From Mycobacteroides saopaulense (GTDB lineage Bacteria > Actinomycetota > Actinomycetes > Mycobacteriales > Mycobacteriaceae): a DNA stretch of 64,000 bases. Shown piece after piece: positions 1 through 25,475 of the stretch. Position 1 is the stretch's first letter. Each line of letters opens with the position of its first letter. Position numbers and translations under genes: made by a program. The notes beneath the pieces are model-generated. The model was not told the origin of the DNA. It did no database searches and worked only from the letters and a program-made list of their open reading frames with translations. The DNA is taken from positions 4,464,001 through 4,528,000 of the forward strand of contig NZ_CP010271.1 of the NCBI RefSeq assembly GCF_001456355.1. The letters run 5' to 3'.

Positions 1-3000
1 AGGGAGGTGTTGATCGCGGCGATCAGGCGCATCGCGGACAGCGAGTCCCCACCTAGATCGAAGAACGAGTCATCGACTCCGACACGTTCACGCCCGAGGA
101 CGCGCGCATAGACATCGGCCAGGATCTGCTCTACCGGATTACCCGGAGCCCGGTAATGACCGGCATCGACGTAGTCCGGTGCGGGCAGCGCACGTCTGTC
201 GAGCTTGCCGTTGACGGTAAGCGGCACCGCGTCGATCACCATCACCGTGGCAGGCACCATATAGCCGGGAAGCCGCTCGGCCAGCTGTGTACGAATCCAG
301 CCGGGATCTACTGTGCCAGTGACGTAGCCGACCAGACGTGGTGTGCCGGGCCCGTCCTCGCGGGCGATCACGACGGCTTGAGTTACTCCGTCGAGTGCGG
401 CCAGCGCCGCCTGGATCTCGCCCAGTTCAACGCGGTACCCACGGATCTTGACTTGTTCGTCGGCCCGTCCCAGATACTGCAGTTGCCCATCGGCATCCCA
501 CCGCACCAGATCACCCGTGCGATACATGCGCGCGCCGGGACCACCGAACGGGCACGCCACAAACCTCGAGGACGTCAGCCCGCCTCTACGCCAATAGCCG
601 ATACCCACACCACGGCCGGCCACATACAACTCACCGACAACGCCCGGCTGTACCGGCCGCAGCCAGCCATCCAGGACGAACAACGCCGATCCCGGTGACG
701 GAACTCCAATCGACACCGGCGACCCTGCGGCCAGCGGTGTACTCATCGTCGCGTATACCGTGGCCTCGGTAGGACCGTAGGCGTTGATCATCATGCGCCC
801 ACGCGCCCAGCGGTCCACCAGCTCGGGCGGACAGGCTTCCCCCGCCACCACCAACGCCATTGATTCCAATCCCTCCGGCGCGATCATTCCTGCTGCCGAG
901 GGTGTTTGGCTCAACACACTGACGCGCCGCGCCATGAGCAATTCATGGAATTCATCGGGCGACGCCGCGATGGTCTCGGGTACTACCAGCAGCTCCGCTC
1001 CATGCAGCAGCGCACCGAAGATCTCCCACACCGAGACATCGAAGCTGTACGAGTGCCACTGCGTCCACACCTGCCCGGGTCCAGAAGGCACACTCTTGCC
1101 CAGCACACCAAACAACCCGGGAACGTTGCGATGCGCAATGGCAACGCCTTTCGGCACACCTGTGGTTCCCGAGGTGTAAATGATGTAAGCGATGTCATCA
1201 GGCGCCGGGCCCGGCAGGGTCGCGCTGGGCTGTGCCTCGATGGTCGGGGCATTGATATCGACGACGGTGAGACCGGGCCGGTCCAGGCGCGATCGGCGAT
1301 CGGCCGTGGTAACCGCAAGGATCGGATTCGCATCGGCCACCATGAACTCGATGCGGGCCGCCGGCAGCGCCGGGTCCACCGGTAGGTACGCCGCACCGGT
1401 TTTCAGCACCGCCAGAATGGCCACTATGGCCTCTGCCGACCTGGAAAACAGCAACGCCACAACCTCGCCCGGGCCTGCTCCCGCCGCGGACAACACGTGC
1501 GCGAACCGGGTAGCGGCCTCATCGAGTTCCCGATAGGTCATCGACGATCCGTCGACGGTCACCGCCGGAGCATCGGGCGTGCGTATCACCTGCTCGGCGA
1601 ACAAGACCGGAATCGACCTCGCCACATCGGGTTCGGCCAGACTCGTTCGATTGCTCCACGCGTCCAGATGTGAACGTGCGGCCTCGTCCAGCAGGTCGAT
1701 CGACGCCACCGGATTCTCCGGCGTGGCGATCATCGCCGACAGCACTGCCGTCATTCGTTCGAAGAGCGCCGCGACAGCTCCAGGGCCGAAGACCTCGGAG
1801 TCGTACTCGACGCGCAGGCCCAATTCGGGGCCCGGCAGGGCCTGCACCGCCAGTGGATAATGGTTGGATTCACGGAAATCGAACTCCGTGACGGTCAGAC
1901 CGTCGACTTCCAACCGTGTGGTTGCATCGATCGGATAGTTCTCGAACACCATGAGGGTGTCGAACAGCCTGTCCTGGCCGGTGATGCGGTGGATGTCGCT
2001 GAGCGCCAGGTGCTGATGCTCGAGGGTGTCGTTGTGCGTATTTTGCAACTGCCGCAACAGGTCCGCGGTGGTGGTGGTCGGTGTGAGAGTCGCGCGCACC
2101 GGGATGGTGTTGATCAGCAGGCCCACCATCGATTCCGCGCCGAGCACCTCGGCCGGTCGCCCCGAGACCGTGGTACCGAATGCGATATCGGACTGGCCGG
2201 TCAGCGAGCTCAGCAGCAGCGCCCAGGCCCCCTGCAGCACGATGCTGACCGTGGTCTGATGCGAGCGCGCCAGATCGCCAAGCGCCGCGGTGATCTCACT
2301 GGGCAGCTGGAATAGCTCAATTCCCCTGCACCCCGGCTTTTCTCGACCGATCGGAGCCACCAGGGTCGGGGTGTCCAAACCCGCCAACGCCGCGCGCCAC
2401 ACGCCATGAGCCGCATCGACATCTCGTTCGGCCAGCCAGCCGACAAAGCTTCGATACGACGGGGCCACGGGCAGCCGCTGCCCTGTCAGGCCGGCGAAGA
2501 TCTCCTGCAGCAAGATCGGCATCGACCAGCCGTCGAGCACGATGTGATGGGTCGTCAGCACAAACCGATACCGCTGGTCCGCAACACGAATGAGCATGGC
2601 CCGAATCGCGGATTGATTCGCCAGGTCACACACGGCGGCGCGTTCGTCGGCATGGAACTGCTCGATCTGCTTGTCGACATCCGGGCTGTCCACGTCCACT
2701 TCGATGTACTGCCACGGCACCGCGGGATCGGCGAGGATGACCTGTACCGGTACTTGGAACTGCTCGCAGAAACGGGCCGCCAAGTGAGGGTGCCGGGCAA
2801 CTACCGCCTGCACGGCGGCGCACAGTCGGTCCGGGTCCAGCGCTCCGCCCAACGCGATGCTCAGTTGCATCGCGTAGACGTCATCGGCACCCTGGGGCGC
2901 GCCCGCGTGATAGAGGAGTCCCTGCTGCAGAGGGGTCAGCGGCAGGATACCGGCAATGCGGTGCTGCTGGCTCAGCTCATCGATCTGCCCCTGACTGAGT

Positions 3001-6000
3001 ATCGCTGGGGCCACATCCGAGGGAGTCAATCCGCCTCCGCCCCTTCGCACATGGGCGCAGATTCCGGCCAGGGCATCGAACCACAGCTGGTTCAATCGGC
3101 TGACCTGATCCCGATCGAGCACCGATGACGCCCACGTCCAGTCGGCCTCCAGCCGTATGCCGGCATCGGTATCGAGGGCGGCGGCATTGAGCTCCAGGGT
3201 GTGTCCGAGAGGAGTAGGAACCATGCGGGCCGTGTGGGTCGCCGATGAGTCCTCGGGGTGCATCCGCCAGACATCACCGAAGATCCCACCGAGTCGTCCG
3301 AGGTAGTTGAATCCGATGGCGGGGTCGGTTTCGGGAAGATCCACCTCGGGATTCAGATAACGCAACAACCCATAGGTCAGGCCATCAGGCAGAGCCCGCA
3401 GCTGCTCCTTGGCATCCTTGATCACCGCACCCAAGGCCGCATCCCCGGCCACCACCTGCGTCCAACGCAACCCACCCACAGCCAACGACACCGGATACTT
3501 CGTGGTGAACCACCCCACCGTGCGCGACAAATCCACACCGCCATCGCCGGCCCCACCCAGCCGCGCCAACTCCTCCTGACGACCATGGCCTTCCACATCA
3601 ATCGCAATCGGGGCCGCGCCAGTTCCCAGGTGTTGTGCCCACGCCAAAGCAAAGGCAATCAAAAGAATCTCGTGTACGCCTGCGTGGAACGCCGCGGGCA
3701 CCTCACCGAGCAGCATCTGCGTGGTCTCGGTATCCAGCGACACCGACAGTCGCCCAGCGGTCTCATAGGTATCGAGCTCAACGTGCGCTGTCGGCAACAC
3801 CGCCGGGGTCGCCGACACCTGCCGCCACCGCTGGGCCTGCTCCACGATGCGAGCGGTTCGAGCCGCGTGAGACAGCAGTTCGGCCCACCTCTGGAACGAC
3901 GTACCCGCCGGTGCGAGAGCGACTGGTTGCCCGTCGCGGTGTTGTGCCCAAGAAACATTGATGTCTTCCAGGAGGATTCGCCAGGAGACGCCGTCGACGG
4001 CCAGGTGGTGCACAACCAGCACCAGCTGACTCGTCGATGCCACCCACAGCGCACTGAGCATCACCCCGGCCGCCGGATCCAACCGCGACCGCGCCGCCAC
4101 CACAGCCTCATCACCCAGCACATCCACCGTCTGCACACACCCAGCGGCATCCACCGACCCCGGCTCAGGAACCGTCAACAACCAGCCACCAACACCGTCA
4201 TCCTCAGCACGCAACCGCAACATCGCATGCCGATCAAGCAACGCCTGCAACAAGATGACCACCGCAGCCTCAGTCACCCCACCAGGAGCCTGCAACACCA
4301 CCGTCTGATTGAACTCACCAATCGGCCCCTCAATCCCCCTGAGCCACCGCATAATCGGCGTCGCAACCACCGAACCAACACCCTCATCAGCCGGCTCATC
4401 TACGCCACGGGACGCCGCGACCACGTGTGCCAGTCTCGCCACTGTCTGCTGCACGAAGATGTCGCGGGGGCGGCACACCAATCCCGCCATACGCATTGCC
4501 GAAGAGACCTGCATCGCAAGGATGCTGTCCCCGCCCAGCTCGAAGAACGAGTCGTCGACACCAACACGTTCTAGGCCCAACACCTGCGCATAGATGCCTG
4601 CCAGGATCTCCTCGATGCCGCTCGACGGGGCGCGGTAATGATCCAGGCTCTGGTATTCCGGCGCCGGCAGCGCCTTCCTGTCGAGTTTTCCATTGACGGT
4701 CAACGGCATCGCCGCCAGGACCACAATCGCCGCCGGCACCATGTACGACGGCAGAGCACCGGCGAGAACGGCGCGCAGCTCCACCGGGTCGGCCGCCCCG
4801 GTGACATAGCCGACCAATCGCTTGTCGCCGGCACGATCCTCTCGGGCGATCACCGCCGCCTGCTCGACCCCGTCCAGAGCCATCAACGCCGACTGGATCT
4901 CACCGAGCTCGATGCGATGGCCCCGGATCTTGACCTGCTCATCTCCGCGGCCCACATACCGCAGCTGACCGTCGGGCCCCCAGCACACGAGGTCGCCCGT
5001 GCGATACATCCGCGTTCCACGTCCGCCGAAGGGACAGGCCACAAATCTCGTCGAGGTCAGCGGTGCTCGGCCCACATAGCCATAACCCAAACCCGCACCG
5101 GCCACATACAACTCGCCGACCACACCGGCAGACACCGGGCGTAACCAGTCATCGAGCACGAAGAAGCCCAGATCTGCCAACGGCACCCCGATCGGACTGG
5201 CGGAGCTATCCAGATCGGCGGCGACGATCTCACGGAACGAGGCATGCACCGTCGTCTCGGTAATCCCATACATATTGATCAAACGTGGAGATCCCGGATG
5301 ATCGGTCAACCATGGCCGGAGTCGCGCCGGCTCCAAGGCCTCCCCGCCGAACACCACCACCTCCAGACCCAGCTGTCCGAGCGGCTCAACAGCCAGCGCG
5401 TCCACGGTCTGCAGCGCATAGAACGCCGACGGCGTCTGACTCAGCACACTGACGCGTTCGCGCCTGAGTAGAGCGTGGAGCTCTTCGGGGGCTCGCGTGA
5501 CGGCCTCGGGAACCACGACCAGACGTCCACCGTGGAGCAGGGCGCCGAAGATCTCCCATACCGAATAGTCAAATGCCAGTGAGTGACACTGCGACCACGC
5601 CTGACCCGCCGAAAGCTCCACATCGGCGTCGATTGCCTCCAGCAGATGCGTGACGTTATGGTGCGCAATGGCCACGCCTTTCGGTGCACCGGTGGTGCCC
5701 GAGGTGTAAATCATGTAAGCGACGTCATCGGGGTCTGGCGTCGTCGGCAAGGCCGAACTCGGGCTGCCGTACACGGCACGATCGGCAATGTCGATCACCG
5801 TCAATCCACATCCAGACAGTCGATCTGCCAGCTCGTCGGTGGTCACCGCGACAACCGGCTCGGCGTCGGACAGCACGAACTCCAGCCGCGCATCGGGCAC
5901 CGAGGGATCGATCGGCACATACGCCGCACCGGTCTTCAGCACACCCATGATGGCCACGACAGCCTCGATCGACCGGGAGAAAAGCAACGCCACCCGCTCC

Positions 6001-7526
6001 CCCGGACCCGCTCCGCATCCGATAAGCAAGTGTGCCAGCCGATTCGACGCCTCATCCAGCCCGCGATACGTGATCGCACTGTCACCGAAACTGACCGCGA
6101 CGGCATCTGGTGCCGAGACCGCCCATTCACCGAAAGCCTCCGGAATCGAACGTGCCCGGGGCATGGGCCGAATCAATGCATCCTGATTACTCCAGGCGTC
6201 CAACTGTGGGCATTCGGCCTCATCGCGAACGGGAACCGCCCCCAGCGGTCGGCCCGGATCCGCGGTCATCGCCGACAACAGCCGCTCGAACCGGTCCGCC
6301 AGCGCCCTGGCGTCGCAGTCGACGAACAACTCCCCGACACCCGATGTGCTCAGGAAGAGCTCCTCGCCGTTCTTGATGAAGACCACACCAAACTGATCCA
6401 CGAGGCCCGTGTGCGTCACGGTCCCCGAACCCGCAGCGCCGGCGAAATCCGCCAGGCGGGTCGTGGGGATGAAGTTGATGGCTGCACGATGCGACACCCG
6501 TCCGCCGCGCTGGAAGCCGATCACGCTCTCAATGGCACGCAATGGAAAGCGCTGGTGCCGCAGTGCTTCCCGTATTCGCATATCAACATGTCCACAAAAG
6601 TCGGCCACCGTGGTAGCCGAAGACATTGCAAACCTCAACGGCACAACACCGGAACTCATGCCGGGAACCAACAGTGCCTCGGGGCGTACCCGCCGGCTCA
6701 CCGGGAAATCGAGCACAACGTCCCGTCCGCCAACCTCACCGTGCACCAGTAGCGCGCATGCCGCGGTGATCACCGCGGCACGGCGCACCCCCAGAGCCTG
6801 GGAGAGCTCGCGAGTCCTGGCGACAATGCAAGGATCCAACTGGATTGGCGCGGAAGGCTCGTATGTGCCCACCCGGCCTGTGGCGATGGGCCCCGAGCTG
6901 TGTCGCGATTCAGACTCTACGGGACCATAATTGGCCCAGTAGGACTCGTCCTCGGTGTAGTCATCGGACACCTCATACTCAGCCTCGCAGTCGATGAGGT
7001 CTCGCAACGATCCGAAGATGGGCGGCGGCACCGGCGCATCCGTGGCAAGTGCCGAGTAGACGGCCGCAATCCGATGACACAGAAGTCCCATGCCTATTCC
7101 GTCTGTCGCGATGTGGTGACAGCACACGAAAAAGTAGAAATCGTCGGGCCGCACCTGCATCAACGCAAACTTGAACAATGGGCCGTCCAGGGGCATGGGC
7201 GCCCGTTGGATCGAAGCCGCTATCCGATAGGCATCACCCATCGGATCCGAGGAACCCGACAAGTCATGGCGTGCGAGTTCGACATCCGGGTGATCGACCA
7301 CCGTCTGGAAAATTTGGCCGTCGAGTTCAGAAAAAGCAGCTCGCAGCGGTTCGGCTTCGTGCACCACCTGACGCACCGCCCGCTCGAGTACGCCGTGCTC
7401 GATGGCGCCGTCGATTCGGCCCAGCATGCCCAGATGCCACTTGGCGTCCGAACCACCAGCTTCCTCGGCGAGCCAGATGTCCAGCTGGCCCCGCGTAAGC
7501 GGAAGCGCCCCATGATCACATTCCAT
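1..7526 (-). CDS. Non-ribosomal peptide synthetase, Mps1-like, C-A-T-E-C-A-T (3' end beyond window)
   Basis: Large modular NRPS; about 2,508 residues are visible and the C-terminus lies outside the window. Domains in order: condensation C1 (about 8-440, HHIATDG at 137), adenylation A1 (about 460-960, [10 protein letters not shown] at 608), carrier T1 (Ser1001 in GGDS), epimerization E (about 1045-1490, [10 protein letters not shown] at 1173, NYLGR near its end), C2 (about 1500-1930, HHIVLDG at 1660), A2 (about 1955-2440, [10 protein letters not shown] at 2118) and T2 (Ser2495). Aligned to GrsA, the nine pocket positions I can read are DYWSVGMVH in A1, close to threonine codes, and DVWSVAAVY in A2, not assignable by eye. 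A condensation domain at the very N-terminus fits loading of an acyl chain, and the E domain predicts a D residue at position 1. ATG at 7526 follows a GGGTGGGG ribosome binding site, 17 bases after mbtH. The layout matches Mps1 of glycopeptidolipid synthesis, but the A1 code differs from the D-Phe expected there. Confidence 0.95.
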
Positions 7527-7543
7527 TGGTCCCCACCCGCTGC

Positions 7544-7774
7544 CTATTGGCCAACAGTCCGACCCTGTGCCACCCTCTCGCGCAGACTCTTTGGCCGAAT
7601 GTCGACCCAATGCTGCTCAATGTTTTCGAGGCACGCGGCGCGGTCTGCTGCGCCGAAAGCCACTCGCCAACCGGCCGGAACATCGACAAACGCAGGCCAC
7701 AAGCTGTGCTGCTCTTCATCGTTGACCAAAACGAAAAAGCTGCCATTGTCGTCGTCAAATGGATTGATGCTCAA
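7544..7774 (-). CDS. mbtH: MbtH-like NRPS accessory protein
   Basis: Small protein of about 76 residues that binds adenylation domains and keeps them soluble and active. The family signature is clear: an N-terminal NPFDD segment, SLWPAF, PAGW near the middle and a C-terminal DIRPKSLR. I place the start at TTG 7774 because the family begins at SINPFDD and GGGAG lies five bases upstream; an upstream ATG at 7798 would add eight residues with no counterpart in the family. It is the first gene of the NRPS transcription unit, 17 bases before the synthetase start, so it almost certainly serves that enzyme. Confidence 0.93.
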
Positions 7775-8311
7775 CAGTTCTCCCGAAACCATCCACACAA
7801 GATAGGTGGAACCTGTTCTAAAACTAACCGAGAAAACGTCGCCGGTGCGCGTTTTTAGAGAAATCGCTAATACTTGCTACCGGTCAGTCACAACGTCGCG
7901 GCGACAGCTGGGATTGCCCGGAGCGACCGCCTCGATGAGGCGAAATTGGCTGCTAGTCGTAACCAAACCAGGCGTGAACAGCTCTACGCTGTGGTCGCGA
8001 CACAGGCGGGTCCGGTTGTCTCATAGTTTGCTGTAAGGTTCGTGGCACGCATCCTTCTGCAGTCGACGAGGTACCGGACGTGACCAGATTCCGCCGGTGG
8101 CGACAACGCACCATGCGACCAACCGGGGAAGCATCGGCCATACGCCCAACCACCGAAAGTGCCTGCGCGCACGGTTGAACAGCCGTACGGTTGACGGGCA
8201 CCGTAACGCCTCGGGACGAGTTATCTTTCGCGACAGGCAAACTCGTCTCCGCCGCCGCCGGGGCCATCTATATGTGAGCTGTAACATCATCTAGCCTTAG
8301 GATCACGCATA
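7775..8311. promoter_or_regulatory. Divergent intergenic region between mbtH-NRPS and P450
   Basis: About 540 bases separate the minus-strand mbtH-NRPS unit from the plus-strand P450 gene, so both promoters must lie here. The stretch next to mbtH (7805-7875) is more AT-rich than its surroundings. I found no convincing coding region and no clear repeat or known operator. The short open frames here lack ribosome binding sites and resemble no protein I know. Confidence 0.5.
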
Positions 8312-9715
8312 GTGAGCAAAACAGCGAAACTCGCACTGCCTCCCGGACCTCCACTCCCTTTGGCGGTGCAGTCCGTATTGATGGCAAGCTACGGCCTACG
8401 CTTTCTGGCCGGCTGCCAGCGCCGCTACGGCAACGTGTTCACGCTACGTATTCCCCTGTCGGGCAAGGTTGTCTACCTTGCAGACCCCGCCGATATCAAG
8501 ACCGTGTATGCCGGCGATCCGAAAGTCTTCCATTCCGGAGAGGCACACTGGTTCTTTCGTGGCCTGCTCGGCGACAGCTCGCTATTCGTGCTCGACGAGG
8601 AAGAGCACCATGACCAGCGCCGCCTACTCATGCCCGCCTTTCATCGCGATGCCGTCGCACACCAGGCCGCCCAGATGGCGGCGATCGCGGCCGCAAACAT
8701 AGCCGAATGGCCGGTAGGCGAAAACTTTTCCGTTGCTCCCAGGACGACTGACATCACGCTCGAGGTAATCCTGCGAACTGTCATCGGTGCTTCCGATCCG
8801 ACGCGGCTGGCCGCGCTCCGCAAGGTGGTGCCACGCCTGCTCTACATGAAGCCGTGGGAAACGCCGGCGATCACCAATCCCGGCCTGCGACGCTATCTGC
8901 CGTGGCAGGGCGTCGGTCGGCGCATGGCAGAGACCGACGCCCTGCTCTACGCCGAGATCGCGGAACGGCGCGCCGATCCAAACCTGGCAGAGCGCACCGA
9001 CGTACTGGCCATGCTGGTCCGCGCCACGGATGACAACGGCCGCACAATGTCCGACCAAGAACTACGTGATCACCTCTTGACCTCTATCGCGGCCGGGCAC
9101 GAAACCACCGCCACCGCGCTGTCCTGGGTATTGGAGCGCCTGACCCGTCACCCGGCAGCACTTGTCAAAGCCGTGCAGGCCGCCGACGCCAGTGCGGAGG
9201 GAGATCCGTCCGGCGATGAATACCTCGATGCGGTCATGAAGGAGACCCTGCGTATCCGACCGGTCATCTTCAGCTCGGGCAGGGTCCTCAAGGCACCCGT
9301 CGAGGTGGGTGGGTACCGATTGCCTGCCGGGATCATGGTCGATCCGGCGATCGGGCTCGTGCATGCCAGCGCCGCTGTGTATCGGGATCCGGACCGATTC
9401 GATCCAGACCGTATGCTCGGCACCACACTGAGCCCGACGACATGGCTGCCATTCGGCGGCGGCAATCGCCGTTGTCTCGGTGCCACTTTCGCCATGGTCG
9501 AGATTCGGGTCGTGTTGCGCGAGATCCTTCGGCGCGTCGAGCTGGACACCACCACAGCGCCCGATGAAAAGCAGCAGGCCAAGCACGTCACCTTCGTTCC
9601 ACATCGCGGCGGCGTCATCCGAGTTCGGACGGTCAGAGATTGTCCACCCGCGATCGCACCGACATGCCCGGCAGGTGCCCAAGGCGCCGCCCGTGCGCCC
9701 GACACACGGCGTTAG
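8312..9715 (+). CDS. Cytochrome P450
   Basis: A 467-residue heme monooxygenase. All three core P450 signatures are present: the I-helix oxygen-binding AGHETT (near 262), the K-helix ExxR in KETLR (near 310), and the heme loop FGGGNRRCLGA with the thiolate Cys near 388. An N-terminal LPPGPPLP segment resembles the proline-rich entry of the CYP135/CYP138-type mycobacterial P450s. No membrane anchor is obvious. The GTG start is preceded by a weak ribosome binding site. It is transcribed away from the NRPS and converges on the glycosyltransferases, so by context it may hydroxylate the acyl chain or peptide of the lipopeptide. The substrate is not visible in the sequence. The last 30 or so residues, rich in Ala and Pro, look like a non-conserved tail. 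Confidence 0.93.
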   Translation: MSKTAKLALPPGPPLPLAVQSVLMASYGLRFLAGCQRRYGNVFTLRIPLSGKVVYLADPADIKTVYAGDPKVFHSGEAHWFFRGLLGDSSLFVLDEEEHHDQRRLLMPAFHRDAVAHQAAQMAAIAAANIAEWPVGENFSVAPRTTDITLEVILRTVIGASDPTRLAALRKVVPRLLYMKPWETPAITNPGLRRYLPWQGVGRRMAETDALLYAEIAERRADPNLAERTDVLAMLVRATDDNGRTMSDQELRDHLLTSIAAGHETTATALSWVLERLTRHPAALVKAVQAADASAEGDPSGDEYLDAVMKETLRIRPVIFSSGRVLKAPVEVGGYRLPAGIMVDPAIGLVHASAAVYRDPDRFDPDRMLGTTLSPTTWLPFGGGNRRCLGATFAMVEIRVVLREILRRVELDTTTAPDEKQQAKHVTFVPHRGGVIRVRTVRDCPPAIAPTCPAGAQGAARAPDTRR

Positions 9716-9732
9716 CGGACGTTTCGGGCTGA

Positions 9733-10998: not shown

Positions 10999-11012
10999 CG
11001 CAAATCCTGCGA

Positions 11013-14340: not shown

Positions 14341-15219
14341 ATGATTCGCCAGAATCAAAGGTTGATACTGCTGCCCGAATCCGGTCTTCAATTCGCCCAA
14401 GAAAGCAGTCCTGTCTCGGTAGTGTTCGGGGCCGTGTGGGGTCTACTTTTCGTGATGGCGACCATGTTCGCGGTCAATCCGGTGCTACTGGCCATCATCG
14501 TCTTGATGATCTCGCGGCCTCAACCCGTGCAGAACCTGGCGGCATACTGGCTCGGCAGCATGATCGTGAGTCTCGCGGGCCTGCTGATACCGCTGACGGT
14601 CCTACACCTAGCGCCGTCATTCCGTTCCTTCGTCGAGGGGATGGCCGCGCCGGGCAGCAGCACCACCACAAGGTTGGTCAACCTGGGGATGGGTGTTCTG
14701 ATGCTGTCGATAGCGGCGCTGATGGTGGCGCGCTCGATCCGCAATCGAACCGGCCTGCCGGTACCGGTCGGCAACACCTCTACCCAGCCCCGGGACAACG
14801 CGGCGCCCAGCCCCGTCACATCGCCGTTCGGTGTGCCGAGCGTGGCGGTGGCGCAGGGCGAATCGCTACCCCGGCGAATAGTGCGGCGCCTCCAAAATGC
14901 CTGGGAAGATGGAGCTTTGTGGGTCGCGTTCGTGTTCGGCCTCTGCGGGCTACCGCCGCCCATGTTGGTAATCTTCGTACTCACACCCATCGTTGCCTCG
15001 GGTAACCCGATCGGCACGCAGGTGGTCGCCGTCATCGTGTTTGTCTTCGGAATGTTCACCGTGGTCGAGTTGACCCTCGTCAGTTATCTGCTCGCGCCAG
15101 CGAAAACCCTTGCCGTACTACGGCCCTTGCATGACTGGGCGCTGGCGCACCGCAGGCGGATGCTGATCACCATCTTCTCAATCGCCGGAATCATTCAGGT
15201 GGTCAACGGCATCGCCTGA
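14341..15219 (+). CDS. Gap-like membrane protein, copy 2
   Basis: A 292-residue paralog of the preceding gene with the same helix arrangement and shared motifs (AVNPVLLAIIVLMISRPQPVQN, ELTLVSYLLAPAKT, HDWALAHRR). It carries an N-terminal extension of about 25 residues before the first helix. That extension has no good ribosome binding site, and an in-frame GTG near 14432 would give a start nearer the family's usual N-terminus, so the true start is uncertain. The cytoplasmic loop between helix groups is longer and richer in Pro and Thr than in copy 1. Tandem Gap genes suggest a heteromeric exporter or two related cargoes. Confidence 0.85.
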   Translation: MIRQNQRLILLPESGLQFAQESSPVSVVFGAVWGLLFVMATMFAVNPVLLAIIVLMISRPQPVQNLAAYWLGSMIVSLAGLLIPLTVLHLAPSFRSFVEGMAAPGSSTTTRLVNLGMGVLMLSIAALMVARSIRNRTGLPVPVGNTSTQPRDNAAPSPVTSPFGVPSVAVAQGESLPRRIVRRLQNAWEDGALWVAFVFGLCGLPPPMLVIFVLTPIVASGNPIGTQVVAVIVFVFGMFTVVELTLVSYLLAPAKTLAVLRPLHDWALAHRRRMLITIFSIAGIIQVVNGIA

Positions 15220-15239
15220 CCGTGTAGTGCGGGCGCGAT

Positions 15240-16292
15240 TCAGGCCCACGTTCCTCGGCGCCCGTTGGCGGTCGCCATGACCTCGTAGATAAGTTTCATC
15301 ATCGAGGGGCGGGTGCGCCGGCTGAGCTTCTGGAATCTGTGGAAATCTTCGATCATCGCCCGAAACCCACGCTCGCTGATTCGGTAGTCCGCCAGCACGT
15401 CGTCAAGTGCCGATGGATCCCAGGGCTCATCGCAGGCGGCTGCGCAAAGCGTCTCGTAAACCACGGAAATCCACTCGGTACCAAAGGGCTCCGTGACCGG
15501 TCCGCAGTATTTCTGGCGCCGAAGATCGGTTTCGAGGAACTCGTCGATCGCTACCTCGTCGCGGTTGTCCAGCGCCAGACCCAACGCCACCGAGATTCGC
15601 TTCATTTCCCGGCGCCAGTCCTCCAATAGGTTGGTGTATCCGACGAATACCCGAGGTACCTGTCGGGTACGCGCCTCGGCCAACAGATTGAACTTGAGCC
15701 ACAACGCACTCGAAAACTCGGGGGAGGCGGCCGCCTGGGCCGCGACCGAGGCGATGACCTCGGTCGGGTGACGCACTGCTATCACCGTCGCCACATCGAA
15801 TCCGGTGAGCCGCGCGGCCTCAAACCACATGTCGGACAGTAGATTTATCCTTGGATCCTTGACGACCAGCAACGGCGCGGTTGGTAACGTGGCCAGGTAG
15901 GCTCGAATCTCGGCGATGCAGGCAGTCTTCTCCGCGGCGTCGAACGCACCTTCCTCCTGCAGGCGCAATGTCGTATCGAACCGCGAGCTACCGTTGCGGT
16001 GCAGGATTCTCTCGTTGAGGATGATCGCCTTGCGCGGTTCCCAATAGCCACGCGGATTGGCCGGGTTGGCACCGGCGAGTGCCGGAGGAAGTGCGCCGCC
16101 ACACAGCGAGAGAGCACGGGTGATCGCCGATGTGCCAGAGCGGGCCATTCCTAGGACAAACAGAAGGACTGGACGGCTCGGGGAGGCGCCGTGCTGCACC
16201 ATGAAATCCTCCAGCGATATGCCGCCCGGTCCTGATGGGGATCCGATCAGAAGGAGTCCCAAGGCGTAATTGACTGTCGCACATTGAATCAT
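15240..16292 (-). CDS. PAPS-dependent sulfotransferase
   Basis: A protein of up to 350 residues with the two PAPS-binding elements of sulfotransferases. These are the 5'-phosphosulfate loop GMARSGTS (48-55) and a 3'-phosphate-binding stretch beginning AVRHPTEVIASV near 180. The rest resembles glycan- and lipid-directed bacterial sulfotransferases. The first 30 residues are poorly conserved, and an ATG at residue 31 (MVQHGASPSRP) is a credible alternative start. It lies tail-to-tail with the Gap genes and about 90 bases downstream of a methyltransferase on the same strand. By context it would sulfate the sugar or peptide of the exported lipopeptide; sulfated glycopeptidolipids are known from other rapid growers. 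Confidence 0.88.
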   Translation of the reverse strand: MIQCATVNYALGLLLIGSPSGPGGISLEDFMVQHGASPSRPVLLFVLGMARSGTSAITRALSLCGGALPPALAGANPANPRGYWEPRKAIILNERILHRNGSSRFDTTLRLQEEGAFDAAEKTACIAEIRAYLATLPTAPLLVVKDPRINLLSDMWFEAARLTGFDVATVIAVRHPTEVIASVAAQAAASPEFSSALWLKFNLLAEARTRQVPRVFVGYTNLLEDWRREMKRISVALGLALDNRDEVAIDEFLETDLRRQKYCGPVTEPFGTEWISVVYETLCAAACDEPWDPSALDDVLADYRISERGFRAMIEDFHRFQKLSRRTRPSMMKLIYEVMATANGRRGTWA

Positions 16293-16381
16293 GGGTCCGC
16301 GAAGGATGTGACGACATCGAGATGCTTTTCCAATGTGGTAACGGCGGTGGTATCAAGGAACTTTTCGCATTCTCAATCGGT

Positions 16382-17155
16382 TTACCTAGCGCGACTGGCA
16401 ACGACCACCGTCGGCCCGAGCCCCCGGCGGCTGCGGAATTCGAGGGTAATAGCCGGATCCGCATGATGTGCCAGCGAACGCAGCGCCGACGGACTGTAGG
16501 CACGGAGGGAACTGATGAATCCATCGTGCTGCAGCGGCGAGATGCCCACGAGCGGCAGCGTCACCGCCAACAGCGCAATATGCAGGGGCACCGGCGGGCG
16601 GGGCAGGTCGACGATCAACAACTTGCGCGCCGCGCGTGTTCCCGCCGCAAATACTCGAGCAGCAGCTTCGGGCGGTAAGTGGTGCAACGACAGCGCAAAC
16701 ACCGCCAGGTCGTAATAACCTCCCGGGGAATCGATCTCGGTGGCATCCATCTTTCGCACAGTTGCGCGCGGGTGGCTGCCGATTTCACCGGCGGCAGCAG
16801 CGGCCACAAAGCTGGGATCGATATCCGTGACCGTCACCTCGGCAGTGGCGTGCATGTCCAGCAGTTTGTGCGACAACCCACCGAGCCCTGCACCGAGTTC
16901 AAGGATCTTCGGAGAACCCACGTCGGCCACCTCCCGAAGCACCATCCGGGCACATTTCTCATGGATGCCGATCCATCGCCGCCGGCCGGCGCGATCAAGC
17001 GAGGACATGACCTTACGTTTCAGATCGTCGACATCGTCGCGGTCCAGGTATTCGAGCCGGTCGGTCTGCAAACGCCGGTCCAGCCAGGACGCATCCGGTC
17101 CGCCCCTGGGCATGCTCGAAATATCGCGGGTCTTGTTCTCCACGTTGAACATCAT
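16382..17155 (-). CDS. Class I SAM-dependent methyltransferase
   Basis: A 257-residue methyltransferase with SAM motif I KILELGAGLGGLSHKL near 80, an acidic motif II (VTDIDPSF) and a post-motif region LAVFALSLHHLPPEA. The C-terminal half has a hydrophobic stretch near residues 175-195 (PLHIALLAVTLPLVG), unusual for a purely soluble enzyme and suggestive of membrane or lipid contact. It is divergent from the acyltransferase gene and upstream of the sulfotransferase, and the latter two could form one transcription unit. The substrate is unknown; within this locus a sugar or acyl O-methylation is likely. Confidence 0.85.
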   Translation of the reverse strand: MMFNVENKTRDISSMPRGGPDASWLDRRLQTDRLEYLDRDDVDDLKRKVMSSLDRAGRRRWIGIHEKCARMVLREVADVGSPKILELGAGLGGLSHKLLDMHATAEVTVTDIDPSFVAAAAAGEIGSHPRATVRKMDATEIDSPGGYYDLAVFALSLHHLPPEAAARVFAAGTRAARKLLIVDLPRPPVPLHIALLAVTLPLVGISPLQHDGFISSLRAYSPSALRSLAHHADPAITLEFRSRRGLGPTVVVASRAR

Positions 17156-17439: not shown

Positions 17440-18855
17440 GTGCCTGGGCAGATGCGTCGTCTTCGCGATTCCCTGAGCCGACGTCGAGCTTCCAAAGGTG
17501 TTACGCAGAAGGATAATCGGCTCGCATTGGCAGACGAGGCACTGCTCGCGGAACACCACGCCGCCGGCATGAACGTGGTTATCCAGGTTACGTGGCTGTA
17601 CAGCGCGGCCGTCGACTTCGACGCGTTACAGAGCTTTCGGCGCAACCTGGGCCAGGGTCTGTTAGGGCGGCGCATCGAGCGTCCGGCGCTGCCCATCGCC
17701 CGGCATCGCTGGGTGGTAGATCGGGGGCAGCTGGACATCGACATCGCACCGAACACCCGTCCACGTGCCGAATTCAGCGATTGGGTCGACGAGCGTTCTC
17801 AGTTGCGCATCGACCCGGAATCGGGCCCGGGGTGGCACCTGGGGGTTCTTCCTCTCGAAGACGGCACCACCGCGATCAGTCTGGTGCTCTCCCACAACCT
17901 GATCGACGGTCTCGGGCTCGCCCTTGTGATAGTCGAGGCGGTACTCGGCAAGACCCGCGACCTTGGTTACCCACCGCCGTCTTCCCGCAAGCGACTACGT
18001 GCCCTGGCACAGGACACCAGACAGACTGCGCGGGACGTGCCGGAGGTCACCAGAGCGCTGATTTCGGCGGTGAAGCTGGGCAGAAAGCAGGCCCGCGAGA
18101 AGGCCGCATCGGGAAGATCACCGGCCCCAGCACCAGCCACGCGTGTCGCGGTCGTACCCGATGACGTTGTGCTTGTACCGGCCATCACGATCTACGTGAG
18201 TCTGAAGGATTGGGATGCCTGCGCCGAAACCCTTGGTGGAGCCAGTCATACACTCGCTGCCGCCTTCGCGGCTCGGTTCGGCGAGCGCATCGGGCGTCGA
18301 CGCTCCGACGATGGTGCGGTCACCCTGCAGATTCCCATCAGTGACCGGGCCCAGGACGACACACGTGCGATGGCTCTTTCCTACGCTCGCGTCAGCATCG
18401 ACCCGACGTCGCTCACCACTGATCTGCGGGAGGTGCGGGCTGCCATCAAGCAGACGCTGAGGACCTTGAAGGAAACACCCGACGAGTCCAAGCAACTCCT
18501 CTGGCTGCCATCGTTCGCGCCGGAACGTTCCCTGAAACGGATGGTTGCCAGGATGCCGGCCGACCCCGATCAGTCGGTGTTCTGTTCTTATCTAGGCGAT
18601 CTCAACTCGATGATCGGCTACCCCGCAGGTTCAATCGCCGACTTCCAGAATGCGCGAGCAACCGGGCAGCGCGAAAGACGGCAGTTGCTTGAACGCACCG
18701 GTGGCAGAATGTTCATTCTGTCTGGGCGCCTCAACGGCAAGATCTTCATCAGTGTCGGCGCTTACCAACCGGGTGCGACAAACACCAAGCAGGCACTGTG
18801 CGATCTGGCTGAACTCACGTTGGCGGATTTCGGCCTCACCGGCGAGATTCACTGA
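17440..18855 (+). CDS. HxxxDG acyltransferase (condensation/PapA-like fold)
   Basis: A 471-residue protein with the catalytic HxxxDG motif of the condensation/PapA/wax-ester-synthase superfamily (SHNLIDGLG, H152 to G157). A second-half segment, CSYLGDLNSMIG near 388, resembles the structural Asp/Asn motif of that fold. A basic linker rich in Arg and Lys (about 180-225) separates the two halves. No membrane anchor is evident. The GTG at 17440 is chosen; an ATG four codons later is equally possible. It converges on the MHB protein gene four bases away. Mycobacterial members acylate trehalose, glycerol, phthiocerol or sugar hydroxyls, so I infer an acyl decoration of the lipopeptide. Confidence 0.8.
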   Translation: MPGQMRRLRDSLSRRRASKGVTQKDNRLALADEALLAEHHAAGMNVVIQVTWLYSAAVDFDALQSFRRNLGQGLLGRRIERPALPIARHRWVVDRGQLDIDIAPNTRPRAEFSDWVDERSQLRIDPESGPGWHLGVLPLEDGTTAISLVLSHNLIDGLGLALVIVEAVLGKTRDLGYPPPSSRKRLRALAQDTRQTARDVPEVTRALISAVKLGRKQAREKAASGRSPAPAPATRVAVVPDDVVLVPAITIYVSLKDWDACAETLGGASHTLAAAFAARFGERIGRRRSDDGAVTLQIPISDRAQDDTRAMALSYARVSIDPTSLTTDLREVRAAIKQTLRTLKETPDESKQLLWLPSFAPERSLKRMVARMPADPDQSVFCSYLGDLNSMIGYPAGSIADFQNARATGQRERRQLLERTGGRMFILSGRLNGKIFISVGAYQPGATNTKQALCDLAELTLADFGLTGEIH

Positions 18856-18859
18856 CAGA

Positions 18860-19198
18860 TCAGAAGTTGTGGCAGGTCCTGTAGGCCTGTTCCATCACGC
18901 CGAGATACGGCTGGAATGCCGGAGCGTTAGCCACATCTTGAGCAGTCTGCGCCCGCTTTTCCGGCCCGGCCGCGAGGAATTCGCGCAGACCGCGTTGCAG
19001 TATGGGCGACTGAGAAAATGCCTTACCGAACTGCGGATCTTGCGCATTCAGCGCCGCCACCACTTGTGGATAGCTGCACGTCGTGTTGATGGCCAAGTCC
19101 AGGTCCGGGTCCGCGGAAGCGATCCCCGTGCCGACGGTCAATGACACCGCCAGCCCTCCCAGTCCAACGGATAATGCGGTTAGCGACAAGCGAAACAT
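18860..19198 (-). CDS. Secreted heme-binding-type (MHB) protein
   Basis: A 112-residue secreted protein. The ATG at 19198 is preceded by an AGGAAG ribosome binding site. It opens with a signal peptide of about 29 residues ending ASA, then a mature domain with two cysteines (NTTCSYPQV and YRTCHNF) that probably pair. The mature part has the helical pattern of the mycobacterial haemophore family (MHB domain, Rv0203-like). It lies 55 bases downstream of the second mmpL gene and is probably the last gene of the mmpS-mmpL-mmpL operon. Rv0203 is known to pass heme to MmpL3 and MmpL11, so a periplasmic partner for these MmpLs is plausible, carrying heme or a lipid. Confidence 0.8.
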   Translation of the reverse strand: MFRLSLTALSVGLGGLAVSLTVGTGIASADPDLDLAINTTCSYPQVVAALNAQDPQFGKAFSQSPILQRGLREFLAAGPEKRAQTAQDVANAPAFQPYLGVMEQAYRTCHNF

Positions 19199-19253
19199 GT
19201 GTACTTCCTTTCTTCCTAATACTTTTGGTGCAGAATCGGCCCTAACGGACGAG

Positions 19254-22115
19254 TCAGGCATCTTGCAACACCCGCTCCCCGCGGTCGGCGAACTGTCGTG
19301 ACCTTCTGATGGGACGCTGAAGCACTCGTTGGGGCCACCAGAACCACCGCCCCAGCAGCGCCGCGATCGACGGGGTCATGAACGCGCGCACCACCAGGGT
19401 GTCGAACAACAATCCGATACCGATGGTCGAACCGACTTGTCCGATAACGCGCAGATCACTGACCACCATGGACATCATGGTGAAGGCGAACACCAGACCC
19501 GCCGAGGTGACCACCTTGCCGGTACCACCCATGGCCCGAATGATGCCCGTATTGATCCCGGCGCCTATCTCCTCCTTCATCCGTGACACCAACAGCAGGT
19601 TGTAGTCCGAACCCACCGCCAACAAGATGATCACCGACATCGCAAGCACGAGCCAGTGCAGTTCTATGCCGAGGATGTTCTGCCAGATCAGCACCGACAA
19701 CCCGAATGCGGCGCCCAGCGAAAGTGCCACTGTCCCAACGATTACCAGAGAAGCGACAAAACTACGCGTCATCACCAGCATGATGCCGAAGATCAGACAC
19801 AGCGCCGCCACGCCTGCGATCAACAGATCGTAGGCGGAGCCGTCGCGTAGGTCCTTGAACGTCGCCGCGGTGCCCGCGAGATGAATCTTGGCGTTCTCCA
19901 GGGGCGTCACCTTGAGCGCCTCCTCCGCCGCCGACCGCACGGCATCCACCCGGGAGAGACTCTCCGGTGTCCCGGGGTCACCGCGGTACGTGAGAATCAG
20001 CCGGACGGCCTTCCCGTCCGGCGAAAAGAACAGGGACATGGCACGTTTGAAGTCCTCGTTCTCGAACACCTCCGGCGGCAGATAGAACGAATCGTCATTC
20101 TGGGCGCCGTCGTAGATCTTTCCCATCTCGCTGGCATTGGCGGCCGTCTGGTCGATGAGCGAGAAGATCCCCGACATGGTGCTGTGCATCGTCAGCATCA
20201 TGGCCCGCATCGACTTCATCGTCGAGATCATCGGCGGGAACAAGTTGATCAGCTCCCGCTGATACAGGTTCATCTCCTCCACGCGCTCGAGGATCCGATG
20301 AGTCCGCTCGCTGAGCAGGTCGGTGCCGTCGAGTGCCTGGAAAACGGATCTGATGGCGAAGCAGATCGGGATGGTCTCGCAGTGCTTCTCCCAGTACAGA
20401 TAGTTCCGCAGCGGCTTGAAGAAGTCGTCGAAATTGGCGATGTAATCGCGCAGTCTGTCCACGGTCGCCGTCAGCTCCCGGTTCATGACGACGGTCTCGT
20501 TGGTGATGTCCGAGATGTTGCGCATCAGCTCATAGGTGTGCTGCATCTGGTTGATCATCTTTGTCGTGTCTTCTGCCTGTTTCAGCATGTCGTCCACACG
20601 TTCTTTCCCGAACGGCAGAATCTGCAACATGCCGGCGCTCTGCAGGCTGATCTGAAACGGTATGGATGTCCGCTCGATCGGACTGCCCTCCGGGCGAGTG
20701 ATGCTCTGCACCATGGAGATACCCGGCACAGCGAAAAGACCCTTTGCCAACTTGTGTAGCACCACGAAGTCCGCGGGATTGCGCATATCGTGGTCTGCTT
20801 CGAGAACCATGACGTCCGGCGTCATGCGCGACTCGGGGAAGTGCCGCTGCGCGGCCGCATAGCCGATGTTAGCCGGAATATCCTGGGGCACATACAGTCT
20901 GTCGTCGTAGCTGGTCCGGTAGCCCGGTAATGTCAGCAGTCCGATCAGCCCGACCGCGCACGCCCCGGCCAAAATGGGGCCTGGCCACCGGACAATCGCC
21001 GTGCCGATCCACCGCCACCGGCGGACCATCATCTTTCGCTTCGGCTCGAATAGTCCGAAACGACTACCGAAACCTATGACGGCCGGGACCAGCGTCACTG
21101 CGACGGCAACCGCCACCGCCATGCCGATAGCAGCGGGTACGCCCATCGTCTGGAAGTAGGGCAGGCGAGTGAAACTGAGACAAAATATCGCGCCCGCAAT
21201 CGTGAGCCCGGAGGCCACGACAACCTTCGCGACACTGCTATAGGTGATGTAGAAGGCCGCCTGGCGATCTTCGCCGGACTGGCGTGCCTCCTGATACCGC
21301 CCGGTGAAGAATATGCCGTAATCCGTTCCCACCGCGATGCCCAGCGATACCAACAGGTTGACCGAGAAAGTCGAAAGCCCAATGACCCCATGGTCACCCA
21401 GAAGCGCGACGATTCCCCGGGCCGCCTGTACCTGCATCCCCACCATGATCAGCAGCAGCACGACGGTGACCACCGAGCGGTACACGAAAAGCAACATCGT
21501 GAAGATCACCACGAGTGTGACGACGGTGATCTTCACGATGGACGAGTTGCCCGCATGGTTCATATCCGTCACCAACGGCGCGGGCCCCGTGACGTAGGCC
21601 TGCACCCCGGGCGGCGGAGCAGTGCGGTCCACGATGCTCCGGACCGCCTCCACGGATTTGTTCGCCAGGGCCTGCCCTTGGTTACCCGCGAGGTTCAGCT
21701 GCACGTACACGCTCTTGCCGTCGGCGCTCTGCACACCTGTCGCCGTGAGCGGATCGCCCCAATAGTCTTGAACGTGCTGCACATGGGTCGTATCGGCCCT
21801 CAGTTGCCGAACCAGGCCGTCGTAGTAAGCGTGAGCGTCGTCCCCGAGGGGTTGCTGCCCCTCCAACACAACCATCGCCACGCTATCGGAATTGGATTCA
21901 CCGAAAACCGCGCCCATGCGCTGCATGGCCTGAAACGACGGCGCCGCTTGAGGAACCAGGGACACCGAGCTCTCACGTCCGACCTGTTCCAACGACGGAA
22001 CGGCGAAGGTGACGATGGCGACGACCATCAGCCAGCCCACGATGATCGGCACAGAGAGCTTACGGATCAGCCCGGCTGCGAACGGCGGCCTGGCCGGCAT
22101 CCGGTGGATACTCAT
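19254..22115 (-). CDS. mmpL: MmpL-family RND transporter (second copy)
   Basis: A 953-residue inner-membrane RND lipid exporter. It has an N-terminal helix, a first periplasmic domain, TM2-6 with the proton-relay GTDYG motif near 263, and a long periplasmic segment. That segment contains a predicted coiled-coil hairpin (about 470-680) with two cysteines (CETIPIC). TM8-12 follow, with the matching GSDYN near 835. The coiled-coil insert places it with the MmpL4/MmpL5 class that works with MmpS proteins. It starts 40 bases after its paralog. Paired MmpL proteins are needed for glycopeptidolipid export in M. smegmatis and M. abscessus, so this pair is the likely exporter for the NRPS product. Confidence 0.93.
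19314..19802. repeat. Direct repeat copy 1, mmpL 3' region (pairs with 22231-22719)
   Basis: At a constant offset of 2,917 bases the two mmpL genes share three uninterrupted identity blocks: 19314-19435 (122 bases), 19456-19645 (190 bases) and 19679-19802 (124 bases). Short diverged segments lie between them. The encoded region is the C-terminal membrane bundle (TM8-12 with GSDYN). The pattern matches that of the glycosyltransferase pair and suggests recent gene conversion. Confidence 0.9.
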
Positions 22116-22155
22116 GCGGTTGTCACCCCGCGACAGACAAAGACACTCATCGCGT

Positions 22156-25059
22156 TTAGCGCTCTTCCTTCTGGAGAAGGAAGCTCACCAGCGGTCGTGG
22201 GCCGGCCGAAGCCCGGATTGTTCTGGCCGGACGCTGAAGCACTCGTTGGGGCCACCAGAACCACCGCCCCAGCAGCGCCGCGATCGACGGGGTCATGAAC
22301 GCGCGCACCACCAGGGTGTCGAACAACAATCCGATACCGATGGTCGAACCGAGCTGCCCGATGGTCACGAGGTCACTGACCACCATGGACATCATGGTGA
22401 AGGCGAACACCAGACCCGCCGAGGTGACCACCTTGCCGGTACCACCCATGGCCCGAATGATGCCCGTATTGATCCCGGCGCCTATCTCCTCCTTCATCCG
22501 TGACACCAACAGCAGGTTGTAGTCCGAACCCACCGCCAACAAGATGATCACCGACATCGCAAGGACCACCCAGTTCAACGGGATACCCAGGATGCTCTGC
22601 CAGATCAGCACCGACAACCCGAATGCGGCGCCCAGCGAAAGTGCCACTGTCCCAACGATTACCAGAGAAGCGACAAAACTACGCGTCATCACCAGCATGA
22701 TGCCGAAGATCAGACACAGGGCGGCCGTCGCCGCGATCAACAGATCGTATGTGGAACCGTCGACGATGTCCTTCACTGATGCCGCAGTGCCTGTCATGTA
22801 AATCTTGGCGTTTCGTAGCGGAGTGCCCTTGAGCGCTTCCGCCGCCGCCGTCTCTATCGGCTGAACCAGTGACATGCCCTCACGTGTCGCGGGATCACCA
22901 CGCTGTGAAATCAGTAGTCGAGCGGCCTTCCCGTCCGGTGACAGGAAGATGTTCATCATGCGTTTGAAATCTTCGTTCTCGAATACCTCGGGAGGCAGAT
23001 AGAACGAGTCGTCGTTCTGCGCGGCGTCGAAAGCCTTACCCATGGCAGTCGAGTTATTGGTCGTTTGTTCCATCTGGTCGAAGATCCCCGACATGGTGCT
23101 GTGCATGGACAGCATCATTTTTCGTGTGGACTCCATCGTCTCGATCATCACCGGGAACTGCTCGGCCATTTGCGGGAGCAGTTCATCCAGACGGTCCAGA
23201 TTCGCGACCAGATCACTCAGCTTGTCGGAGACCTCATCGACGCCGTCGAGCGTGTCGAAAACCGAACGGATGGCTTGACATACCGGAATGTCATAGCAGT
23301 GCTTTTCCCAATAGAGGTAGTTGCGAATCGGCCTGATGAAGTCATCGAAATCCATCACGTGATCCCGCAGGTCATTCATGATGTCCTCGAGCTCATGGGT
23401 GGTCCCGACCATGTCGTGGGTCGTGCCGACCATCTGCTCGGTCAGCGCTTGCATGCGCTTCATGATCGCTATCGTCTTCAGCATGTCGTCGGCCTGTACC
23501 AGGAGGTCGTCCATGCGATTCCGCTGAAACGGCATCAAATGCGATTGGCTGGCGCTGCTCATGCTGAGCATGTACGGAATGGTGGTGTGTTTGAGAGGTT
23601 CGCCGCCAGGTCGCGTGACCGCCTGGACCCGCGAAACACCGGGGACGGCTTGCACTCCCCTGGCCAGCTTGTTCAGTACCAGAAAATCGGTCGGATTGCG
23701 CATATCGTGGTCCGCTTCGACCAACAGAATGTCGGGGGCCATCATCAACGACTGCGGGAAATGTCTTGATGCAGCGGCATATCCAACATTGGCGGGAATA
23801 TCTTGGGGTATGTACTTCTGATCGTTATAGCTTGGCTGGTACACCGGCAACGTCAAGAGTCCGACCAGCGCCACCGCACACGTCGCGACGAGAATCGGTG
23901 CCGGCCATCGCACGATCGCGGTGCCGATCTGTCGCCACCGGCGGACCGCGACCTTTCGTTTGGGTTCAAACAATCCGTAACGGCTACCGACGGCGATGAC
24001 CGCCGGGACGAGCGTGATGGCGACCGCCACCGCGACGACCATGCCGACAGCGGTAGCCACGCCCAGCGTTTGATACACGGGTAGCCGCGTGAAGTGCAGG
24101 CAGAGAACGGCGCCGGCAATCGTCAGACCCGAACCCAGGACCACCTTGGCGACACTACGAAAGGTGGTGTAGAAGGCGGCTTCCCGGTCCTCGCCGGCCT
24201 GACGCGCCTCCTGATACCGCCCGGTGAAGAATATGCCGTAATCGGTTCCGGCCGCGATGGCGAGCGCCACAAGCAGGTTGACGACGAACGTGGTGATACC
24301 GATGAGTCCGAGATTCCCGAGGAGCGCCACAAACCCCCGTGCCACCGTCAACTCTATTCCGACGACTACCAACATGAGGATGACGGAAACAATCGATCGG
24401 TACACCAGGAGGAGCATCGTGAAGATCACCGCCAGGCTCAGCCCCGTCACCAGCAGGACGGTCCTGTTGCCGGCCGGACCCAGATCCGCCGCGAAGGCGG
24501 CCGGACCCGTAACGTAGGCATTGACTCCGGGCGGGGCCGGTGTCCTGCCCACAATCGCACGTACGGCTTCGACGGACTGGTTAGCCGAGGCCCCTTGCCG
24601 GGGATCGGTAAGGGCCACTTGCACATAGGTGGCTTTGCCGTCGAGGCTCTGCGCGGCGGCCTGCGTCATCTGATCGCCCCAGAAATCCTGCACATGCTGC
24701 ACATGTGTCGCGTCGGCCTTCAGCTGGCGAATCAGGTCGTCGTAGTAACGATGTGTGTCGTCGCCAAGGGGCTGTTGTCCCTCCACCACGATCATCGCGA
24801 CAATGCTGGAATTCGACTCGTCGAACAGCTTGCCCATCCGCTGTGTCGCCTGAAACGACGGAGCCGCGTCGGGGTTCATCGCGACCGCGTGCTCCTTCTC
24901 GACCTGTTCGAGTGAGGGAACGCTGATGCTCAGGATGACAGCGATCGCCAGCCAACCAAGGATGATCGGAATCGACAGACGACGGATCGTCCGCGCCAGG
25001 AACGGTGGACGGCCCACCACCGGCAACGGCTCTGTCGGGGGTTCGCCGGGAGTACTCAT
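22156..25059 (-). CDS. mmpL: MmpL-family RND transporter (first copy)
   Basis: A 967-residue RND transporter with the same plan as the following gene: proton-relay GTDYG near 273 and GSDYN near 843, a coiled-coil hairpin between about 480 and 690 containing CYDIPVC, and about twelve membrane helices. The start is the ATG at 25059, which overlaps the mmpS stop in an ATGA junction; an upstream in-frame extension inside mmpS is not credible. Translational coupling to mmpS implies a stoichiometric complex. Its last 200 codons are almost identical in DNA to those of the second mmpL. Confidence 0.94.
22231..22719. repeat. Direct repeat copy 2, mmpL 3' region (pairs with 19314-19802)
   Basis: Second copy of the homogenised mmpL segment. 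Identity is lost abruptly upstream, where the periplasmic coiled-coil domain begins. Confidence 0.9.
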
Positions 25060-25475
25060 GCAGCCTTCAGCATGCAGAAGGTCAACGCGCTGACGCCATA
25101 CCGGATTTTCTCGTCCTTGACTTTGTCGCCCACCAAGATGCGGCATCCGATGCTGTCGGCGTCGCCCTGCGCCGTGATGTTTCCCATCGCGGTCGCCTCG
25201 GTGATCGGAAACTCCACCGACCAGGGAAGTGCGGCCTGCTTGATGACCTGCGGTTCGGCATCTGCGTCGAAGTAGCTGATAGTGGCCACCGTGCCCGGCG
25301 GTCCGAACACTTCGTACACCAGATACTTGGGATCATGCGGTCGCTTCTCTTCGCGTTCAGCGCTGGCGTATTCGGGGCGACGTTCGTTACCAAAGACACC
25401 GTGCAGCCGCGACACCGTAAATCCGCCCGCAACTCCCACCACCACAAGGACCAACGGAATCCACACACGCTTCAA
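25056..25475 (-). CDS. mmpS: MmpS-family transport accessory protein
   Basis: A 139-residue protein with one N-terminal membrane helix (about 4-22) and a periplasmic beta-sandwich domain. The domain has MmpS hallmarks: [21 protein letters not shown], a central LPWSVEF, and a C-terminal paired-cysteine segment (GCRILVGD and TFCMLKAA). MmpS proteins partner MmpL4/5-type exporters. It is the first gene of the mmpS-mmpL-mmpL string and overlaps the first mmpL by four bases. Confidence 0.93.

Follow-up and report, generated by a model that had tools for sequence, protein, structure and literature searches.

A GL8P-type lipooctapeptide locus with a conserved sulfotransferase in Mycobacteroides saopaulense

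The window, which is the whole 64,000-nucleotide stretch analysed (positions 4464001-4528000 within the single-contig, 4.65-Mb genome of Mycobacteroides saopaulense), begins inside what is very probably the glycosylated lipooctapeptide (GL8P) locus of this species, the gene-by-gene counterpart of MAB_4689c-4705c of M. abscessus, an identity that was fitted through published locus tags and descriptions. Gene order, domain order, adenylation codes, conservation and the fold of the sulfotransferase were established in this analysis. A sequence-only reading of the same DNA had proposed a glycopeptidolipid (GPL)-like locus for a glycosylated lipopeptide with its own MmpS/MmpL export genes, distinct from the canonical GPL locus and starting with Thr, and this much is supported. 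That reading also regarded the lipopeptide as undescribed, which is wrong for the locus, as a GL8P-type system is already known and the M. abscessus counterpart was published in 2025, together with a mutant and with NMR and mass-spectrometric data (PMC11978893). What is new here is the octapeptide synthetase outside Mycobacteroides, the conserved C-T end that has no adenylation (A) domain, and the extra CH2 in the published formula.

In M. abscessus, the second GPL-like locus encodes a hexamodular and a bimodular nonribosomal peptide synthetase (NRPS), with D residues predicted at positions 1, 3, 6 and 8 (PMC11978893). The product, GL8P, has the sequence T-A-F-I-Y(OMe)-L-T-T, is N-stearoylated and bears either one rhamnose or two on Thr-8; its larger form has in addition a 2-O-methyl group and what is putatively hydroxylauric acid. 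GL8P is absent in a MAB_4690c mutant, which macrophage-like cells take up less and which is attenuated in mice (PMC11978893). MAB_4690c has elsewhere been annotated as PstA (PMC12455991). In the text on the M. abscessus locus, the sulfotransferase, the P450 and the acyltransferase are not named (PMC11978893).

Every gene listed in the sequence-only reading (NRPS, MbtH, glycosyltransferases, methyltransferases, sulfotransferase, acyltransferase, P450, Gap proteins, MHB protein and mmpS-mmpL-mmpL) was found, but the list was short of two members of the set, NRPS2 and a methyltransferase related to ICMT (Table 1). The stretch bounded by the ICMT-like gene and mmpS comprises exactly 17 genes, the same number as in MAB_4689c-4705c, and gene order and strands agree with every MAB tag named in the published sources, which assign 4692c to MbtH, 4693 to a P450, 4694c and 4695c to glycosyltransferases, 4696c to a methyltransferase, 4698 to a conserved hypothetical protein, 4702c to a TB8.4-like heme binder, 4703c and 4704c to MmpL, 4705c to MmpS and 4706c to DoxX (PMC12455991, PMC8526041, PMC13340314, PMC11925935), with 4707c as lipase and 4708c as glyoxalase (PMC11925935). 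Tags 4697, 4699c, 4700c and 4701 were placed by counting only; the published MAB_4691c primers were absent, with up to two mismatches allowed, from all loci tested, and the tags of the sulfotransferase, MT2 and the acyltransferase therefore rest on the count. The two loci are alike in their hexamodular and bimodular NRPSs, in epimerization (E) domains at 1, 3, 6 and 8, in order, strands and gene number, and in lying in genomes that also have a canonical GPL locus; they belong to different species, and the likeness is one to the published tags and description of the M. abscessus locus rather than to its sequence.

Table 1. Genes of the GL8P-type locus and its neighbours; positions are those of the window unless marked as genome positions.
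Gene	M. abscessus counterpart	Position	Strand	Remarks
NRPS1	MAB_4691c	1..7526; open frame 3-7610, on to genome 4447203 (window -16797)	-	likely ATG 7526; inside window: starter C, A1 (Thr), T, E, C, part of module 2
NRPS2	MAB_4690c	genome 4439065-4447206		2713 aa
ICMT-like methyltransferase		genome 4438376-4439068		230 aa; Pfam PEMT and ICMT matches; directly after NRPS2
MbtH-like	MAB_4692c	7544..7798	-	Pfam MbtH
Cytochrome P450	MAB_4693	8312..9715	+	Pfam p450, 198 bits
Glycosyltransferase GT_B	MAB_4694c	9733..11007	-	Pfam EryCIII-like_C and Glyco_transf_28
Glycosyltransferase GT_A	MAB_4695c	11013..12293	-	
Methyltransferase MT1	MAB_4696c	12437..13417	-	Pfam Methyltransf_23
SfLAP/Gap protein 1	MAB_4697 (by count)	13495..14298	+	Pfam SfLAP
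SfLAP/Gap protein 2	MAB_4698	14341..15219	+	Pfam SfLAP
Sulfotransferase	MAB_4699c (by count)	15240..16202; frame open to 16292	-	probable start 16202
Methyltransferase MT2	MAB_4700c (by count)	16382..17155	-	Pfam Methyltransf_25
HxxxDG acyltransferase	MAB_4701 (by count)	17440..18855	+	
MHB/hemophore-related secreted protein	MAB_4702c	18860..19198	-	NCBIfam MTB_hemophore
MmpL	MAB_4703c	19254..22115	-	Pfam MMPL
MmpL	MAB_4704c	22156..25146	-	Pfam MMPL
MmpS	MAB_4705c	25056..25475	-	Pfam Mycobact_memb
Membrane protein without family match		26242..27201	-	neighbour of locus, in the place of DoxX-like MAB_4706c
Secretory lipase	MAB_4707c	27220..28488	-	neighbour of locus; Pfam LIP

Extending the window to the left, as the sequence-only reading had suggested, completed NRPS1 16.8 kb past the edge, with NRPS2 following after an overlap of four bases. 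NRPS1 is hexamodular; counted from the ATG at window position 7526, just after MbtH, it has 8107 aa (8135 aa from the first TTG), and its motifs give the domain order C-A1-T-E, C-A2-T, C-A3-T-E, C-A4-T, C-A5-T, C-A6-T-E, C; the bimodular NRPS2 continues with A7-T, C-A8-T-E, C-T. The E domains thus lie in modules 1, 3, 6 and 8, in agreement with the published description of GL8P (PMC11978893). The synthetase of the canonical GPL locus in the same genome served to calibrate Thr and Phe. A1 (DYWSVGMVH) has the code of the GPL Thr module, and in its ten-letter form (DYWSVGMVHK) is identical to the second (Thr) module of that synthetase, which bears out the Thr-like A1 noted earlier; A7 and A8 (both DFWSVGMVH) are one residue off this code, and A3 (DVWTVVAMC) is one residue off the GPL Phe module. 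The remaining codes, A2 DVWSVAAVY, A4 DFWTVGVMW, A5 DAESLAAIC and A6 DFWTLGAVY, were assigned to Ala, Ile, Tyr and Leu solely by the place that each takes in GL8P; the codes as a whole are compatible with a predicted Thr-Ala-Phe-Ile-Tyr-Leu-Thr-Thr. A Lys-like reading of A5 was rejected, as the code is kept group-wide and occupies the O-methyl-Tyr position of GL8P.

There is next to no chance that the locus is simply the canonical GPL locus of the species, in spite of the fact that paralogues of its glycosyltransferases, MmpL, MmpS, Gap and MHB proteins are present in that locus at 38-67% identity (58-60% between GT_B and the GPL-locus glycosyltransferases; GT_A and GT_B are 74% identical to each other), and that the Thr code is shared and the Phe code near-identical. 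The species' own Mps1-Mps2 pair lies separately at 3858321-3876400 (3451 and 2575 aa), is tetramodular with four A domains, ends in a reductase-like domain recognized by motif, and belongs to a system whose product is a tetrapeptide, whereas the GL8P locus has eight A domains, a C-T end and no reductase. Moreover, the P450, the acyltransferase, the sulfotransferase and both methyltransferases found no counterpart in a 50-kb stretch of the GPL locus (E 1e-5, MbtH left out), in line with the earlier view that the first three lie outside the GPL set.

A different challenge to the GL8P identity would be that the locus directs a lipooctapeptide unlike GL8P in sequence or decoration, which would then itself be undescribed. 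One could point to the codes of A2, A4, A5 and A6, which are without independent calibration, to a sulfotransferase that the published GL8P structure does not account for, and to the fact that the product is known in M. abscessus whereas in this species only genes were read. Yet the codes are alike apart from single substitutions across 22 genomes and compatible with the published sequence, and the tailoring gene set is retained among relatives, all of which makes such a departure from GL8P very improbable.

The extent of this conservation was traced through the acyltransferase, which is at least 69% identical in 30 of 396 genomes of the genus, its own included, among the matches listed. In 22 of these 30 the NRPS region was read, and all 22 (nine of the Mycobacteroides group, the window included, and 13 others) have the same codes with single substitutions. 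G189 and G127 each have two positions unread in one domain and A7 of G230 was unreadable; there are frame breaks in G230 and G238, the genes of G299 and G127 lie on more than one contig, and in G242, G231 and G279 the reading covered part of NRPS2. Outside the 22 are G067 and G381, with no NRPS within the 40 kb read, G021, G176 and G336, where the contig end was reached, and G093, G134 and G192. Gene content and order are kept in eight Mycobacteroides-group genomes, except that G091 lacks one mmpL; the 13 others mostly have a different gene order where compared. Carriers include M. franklinii CV002, Mycobacteroides sp. LB1, Mycolicibacterium frederiksbergense AC80, M. setense DSM 45070 and Mycobacterium sp. 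DL99 and sp. URHD0025. On the basis of 42 strains, the locus has been described as conserved in the M. abscessus complex and a few related species such as M. immunogenum and nowhere else, and GL8P has been put forward as a marker that would detect infection selectively (PMC11978893). A GL8P-type octapeptide synthetase also occurs outside Mycobacteroides, for example in M. setense and M. frederiksbergense, a wider distribution than the main text of that paper states; if these and other species make GL8P, such a marker may discriminate less well than that text implies (PMC11978893).

Two of these genomes, M. setense DSM 45070 (G299) and G127, have an apparent fusion of 3143 or 3150 aa that joins the start of NRPS1 to the end of NRPS2. 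A natural dipeptide synthetase was considered and rejected, since the missing body of NRPS1 lies on short separate contigs that start inside the first Thr module, and the ends of these contigs match the fusion at 96-97% identity along 377 and 458 bases; the fusion is best explained as a draft-assembly collapse of near-identical Thr modules. In G091, whose single contig has 5,029,817 bases, NRPS2 breaks off within its last C domain and continues into the reading frame of an ABC transporter, the final T and the ICMT-like gene are missing and a single mmpL was found, through either a deletion or an assembly error.

The end of the assembly line differs from the annotation published for M. abscessus. 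That paper annotates a thioesterase domain (PMC11978893), whereas Pfam found none in the last 1944 aa of NRPS2, where it recognized condensation, AMP-binding and PP-binding domains. This difference counts against the GL8P identity, as do the silence of the paper's text on a sulfotransferase, a P450 and an acyltransferase and the ABC-transporter-like gene described below. Beyond its last C domain NRPS2 has no A-domain motif; all 18 of the 18 copies that were read to their end, the truncated one of G091 excepted, have a T domain there, complete with its Ser. By eye, the terminal module has remnants of A-domain edges, which suggests that its A domain was lost.

The published formulas bear on this same terminus. 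Those given for GL8P, C71H116N8O18 and C90H150N8O24, are both without sulfur (PMC11978893), and the free acids that we calculated from the stated building blocks are C70H114N8O18 and C89H148N8O24, so that each published formula equals the free acid plus one CH2. Likewise, the published fragment at m/z 1140 matches the core plus CH2 (calculated 1139.709; free acid 1125.693). The surplus fits a C-terminal methyl ester, which the GL8P text does not name (PMC11978893), as in L5P of M. avium subsp. paratuberculosis (PstA), another mycobacterial NRPS lipopeptide, set beside GL8P by description, which has five residues and such an ester (PMC8103206). The membrane methyltransferase of the ICMT/PEMT family after NRPS2 is a candidate for making it. 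Of 22 sequence sets, 17 (one of them partial) have the gene beside NRPS2. Eleven of these 17 come from outside Mycobacteroides, and there the gene keeps its place next to NRPS2 but is encoded on the opposite strand. In four of the five remaining sets the stretch ends before the gene, and in G091 it is absent. Together, the C-T end without an A domain and the ICMT-like gene provide a testable idea for the release and capping of lipopeptides.

The sulfotransferase of the locus is real and conserved, and its presence beside a published product free of sulfate is a concrete gap. The Pfam match is weak (27.3 bits against a cut-off of 27), and a search for sequence relatives in the PDB matched only unrelated proteins at E<=1, but the sulfotransferase fold was confirmed, and relatives align from about residue 33 of the open frame. 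The RSGTS motif (5'-phosphosulfate loop) is kept in 45 of the 45 rows that span it (the window and 44 homologues), in an alignment of 46 rows chosen by tblastn with one row cut; in rows L039 and L047 the upstream extension crosses a stop codon, and stop-free starts were used afterwards. Values of dN/dS of 0.071-0.088 indicate purifying selection, and the gene is present in all 20 of the relatives' loci compared. Among distant homologues, 18 of 21 stretches have a GPL-type glycosyltransferase nearby (there was no random control), which hints at a possible family of GPL-type sulfotransferases. Sulfated GPLs occur in the M. fortuitum group; a search of the open-access literature for a sulfated GPL or a GPL sulfotransferase returned nothing on point.

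What the enzyme acts on was weighed in two ways. We would put at about even odds that GL8P is never sulfated and that the sulfotransferase serves some other lipid of the envelope, or a precursor, or has taken on a different function: both published formulas contain zero sulfur (PMC11978893), the solved structures nearest by fold are distant, and some homologues do not conserve the His of the RHP motif. The force of the formulas is reduced by the fact that a sulfated form was not looked for, because the published spectra are positive-ion and the formula search was limited to C, H, N and O (PMC11978893), and the gene's constancy in 20 of 20 loci, its purifying selection and its distant homologues beside GPL-type glycosyltransferases speak against this reading, uncontrolled as that last count is. 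As a best guess, the enzyme may sulfate a GL8P-type product or its precursor, in a form yet unseen. On this reading, which is plausible though somewhat short of an even chance, a sulfated GL8P would arise through a GPL-type sulfotransferase constant in the locus in Mycobacteroides and in distant mycobacteria, with release by the C-T end lacking an A domain and a methyl-ester cap from the ICMT-like enzyme, and it would have been missed because of the ion mode and the restricted formulas of the published spectra. The calculated [M-H]- values are 1806.026 for sulfo-GL8Pb and 1447.790 for sulfo-GL8Pa.

The sulfolipid-1 locus of M. tuberculosis also brings together a sulfotransferase, a PapA-type acyltransferase, an SfLAP protein and MmpL, but differs in that its product is a trehalose lipid and that it has a polyketide synthase and no NRPS.

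From the genes and the GL8P structure we infer how enzymes may be assigned to steps, including release, methyl esterification and sulfation. The starter C domain of NRPS1 would join an activated fatty acid to Thr-1, NRPS1 and NRPS2 would assemble acyl-D-Thr-Ala-D-Phe-Ile-Tyr-D-Leu-Thr-D-Thr, and the chain would exit through the final C-T pair. GT_A and GT_B would put the rhamnoses on the last Thr, and MT1, MT2 and the ICMT-like enzyme would between them methylate Tyr, rhamnose and the C-terminal carboxyl, with no enzyme tied here to a particular one of these. The acyltransferase, perhaps with the P450, may place the hydroxyacyl chain on the first rhamnose; the former has a weak WS/DGAT match in NCBIfam, an HNLIDG motif seen by eye and no match in Pfam, and the latter matched only general P450 relatives in the PDB. 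Export of the product would fall to the Gap, MmpS and MmpL proteins.

Two further genes lie near the locus. Some 15 kb beyond NRPS2, an acyl-AMP-ligase-like gene (genome 4422327-4423988) is a candidate supplier of the N-acyl chain. On the other side, an ABC-transporter-like gene (window 28537-30915) stands between the lipase and the glyoxalase, as it does in G091, G087 and G309, unlike in M. abscessus, where the list for MAB_4707c-4708c has no such gene between the two.
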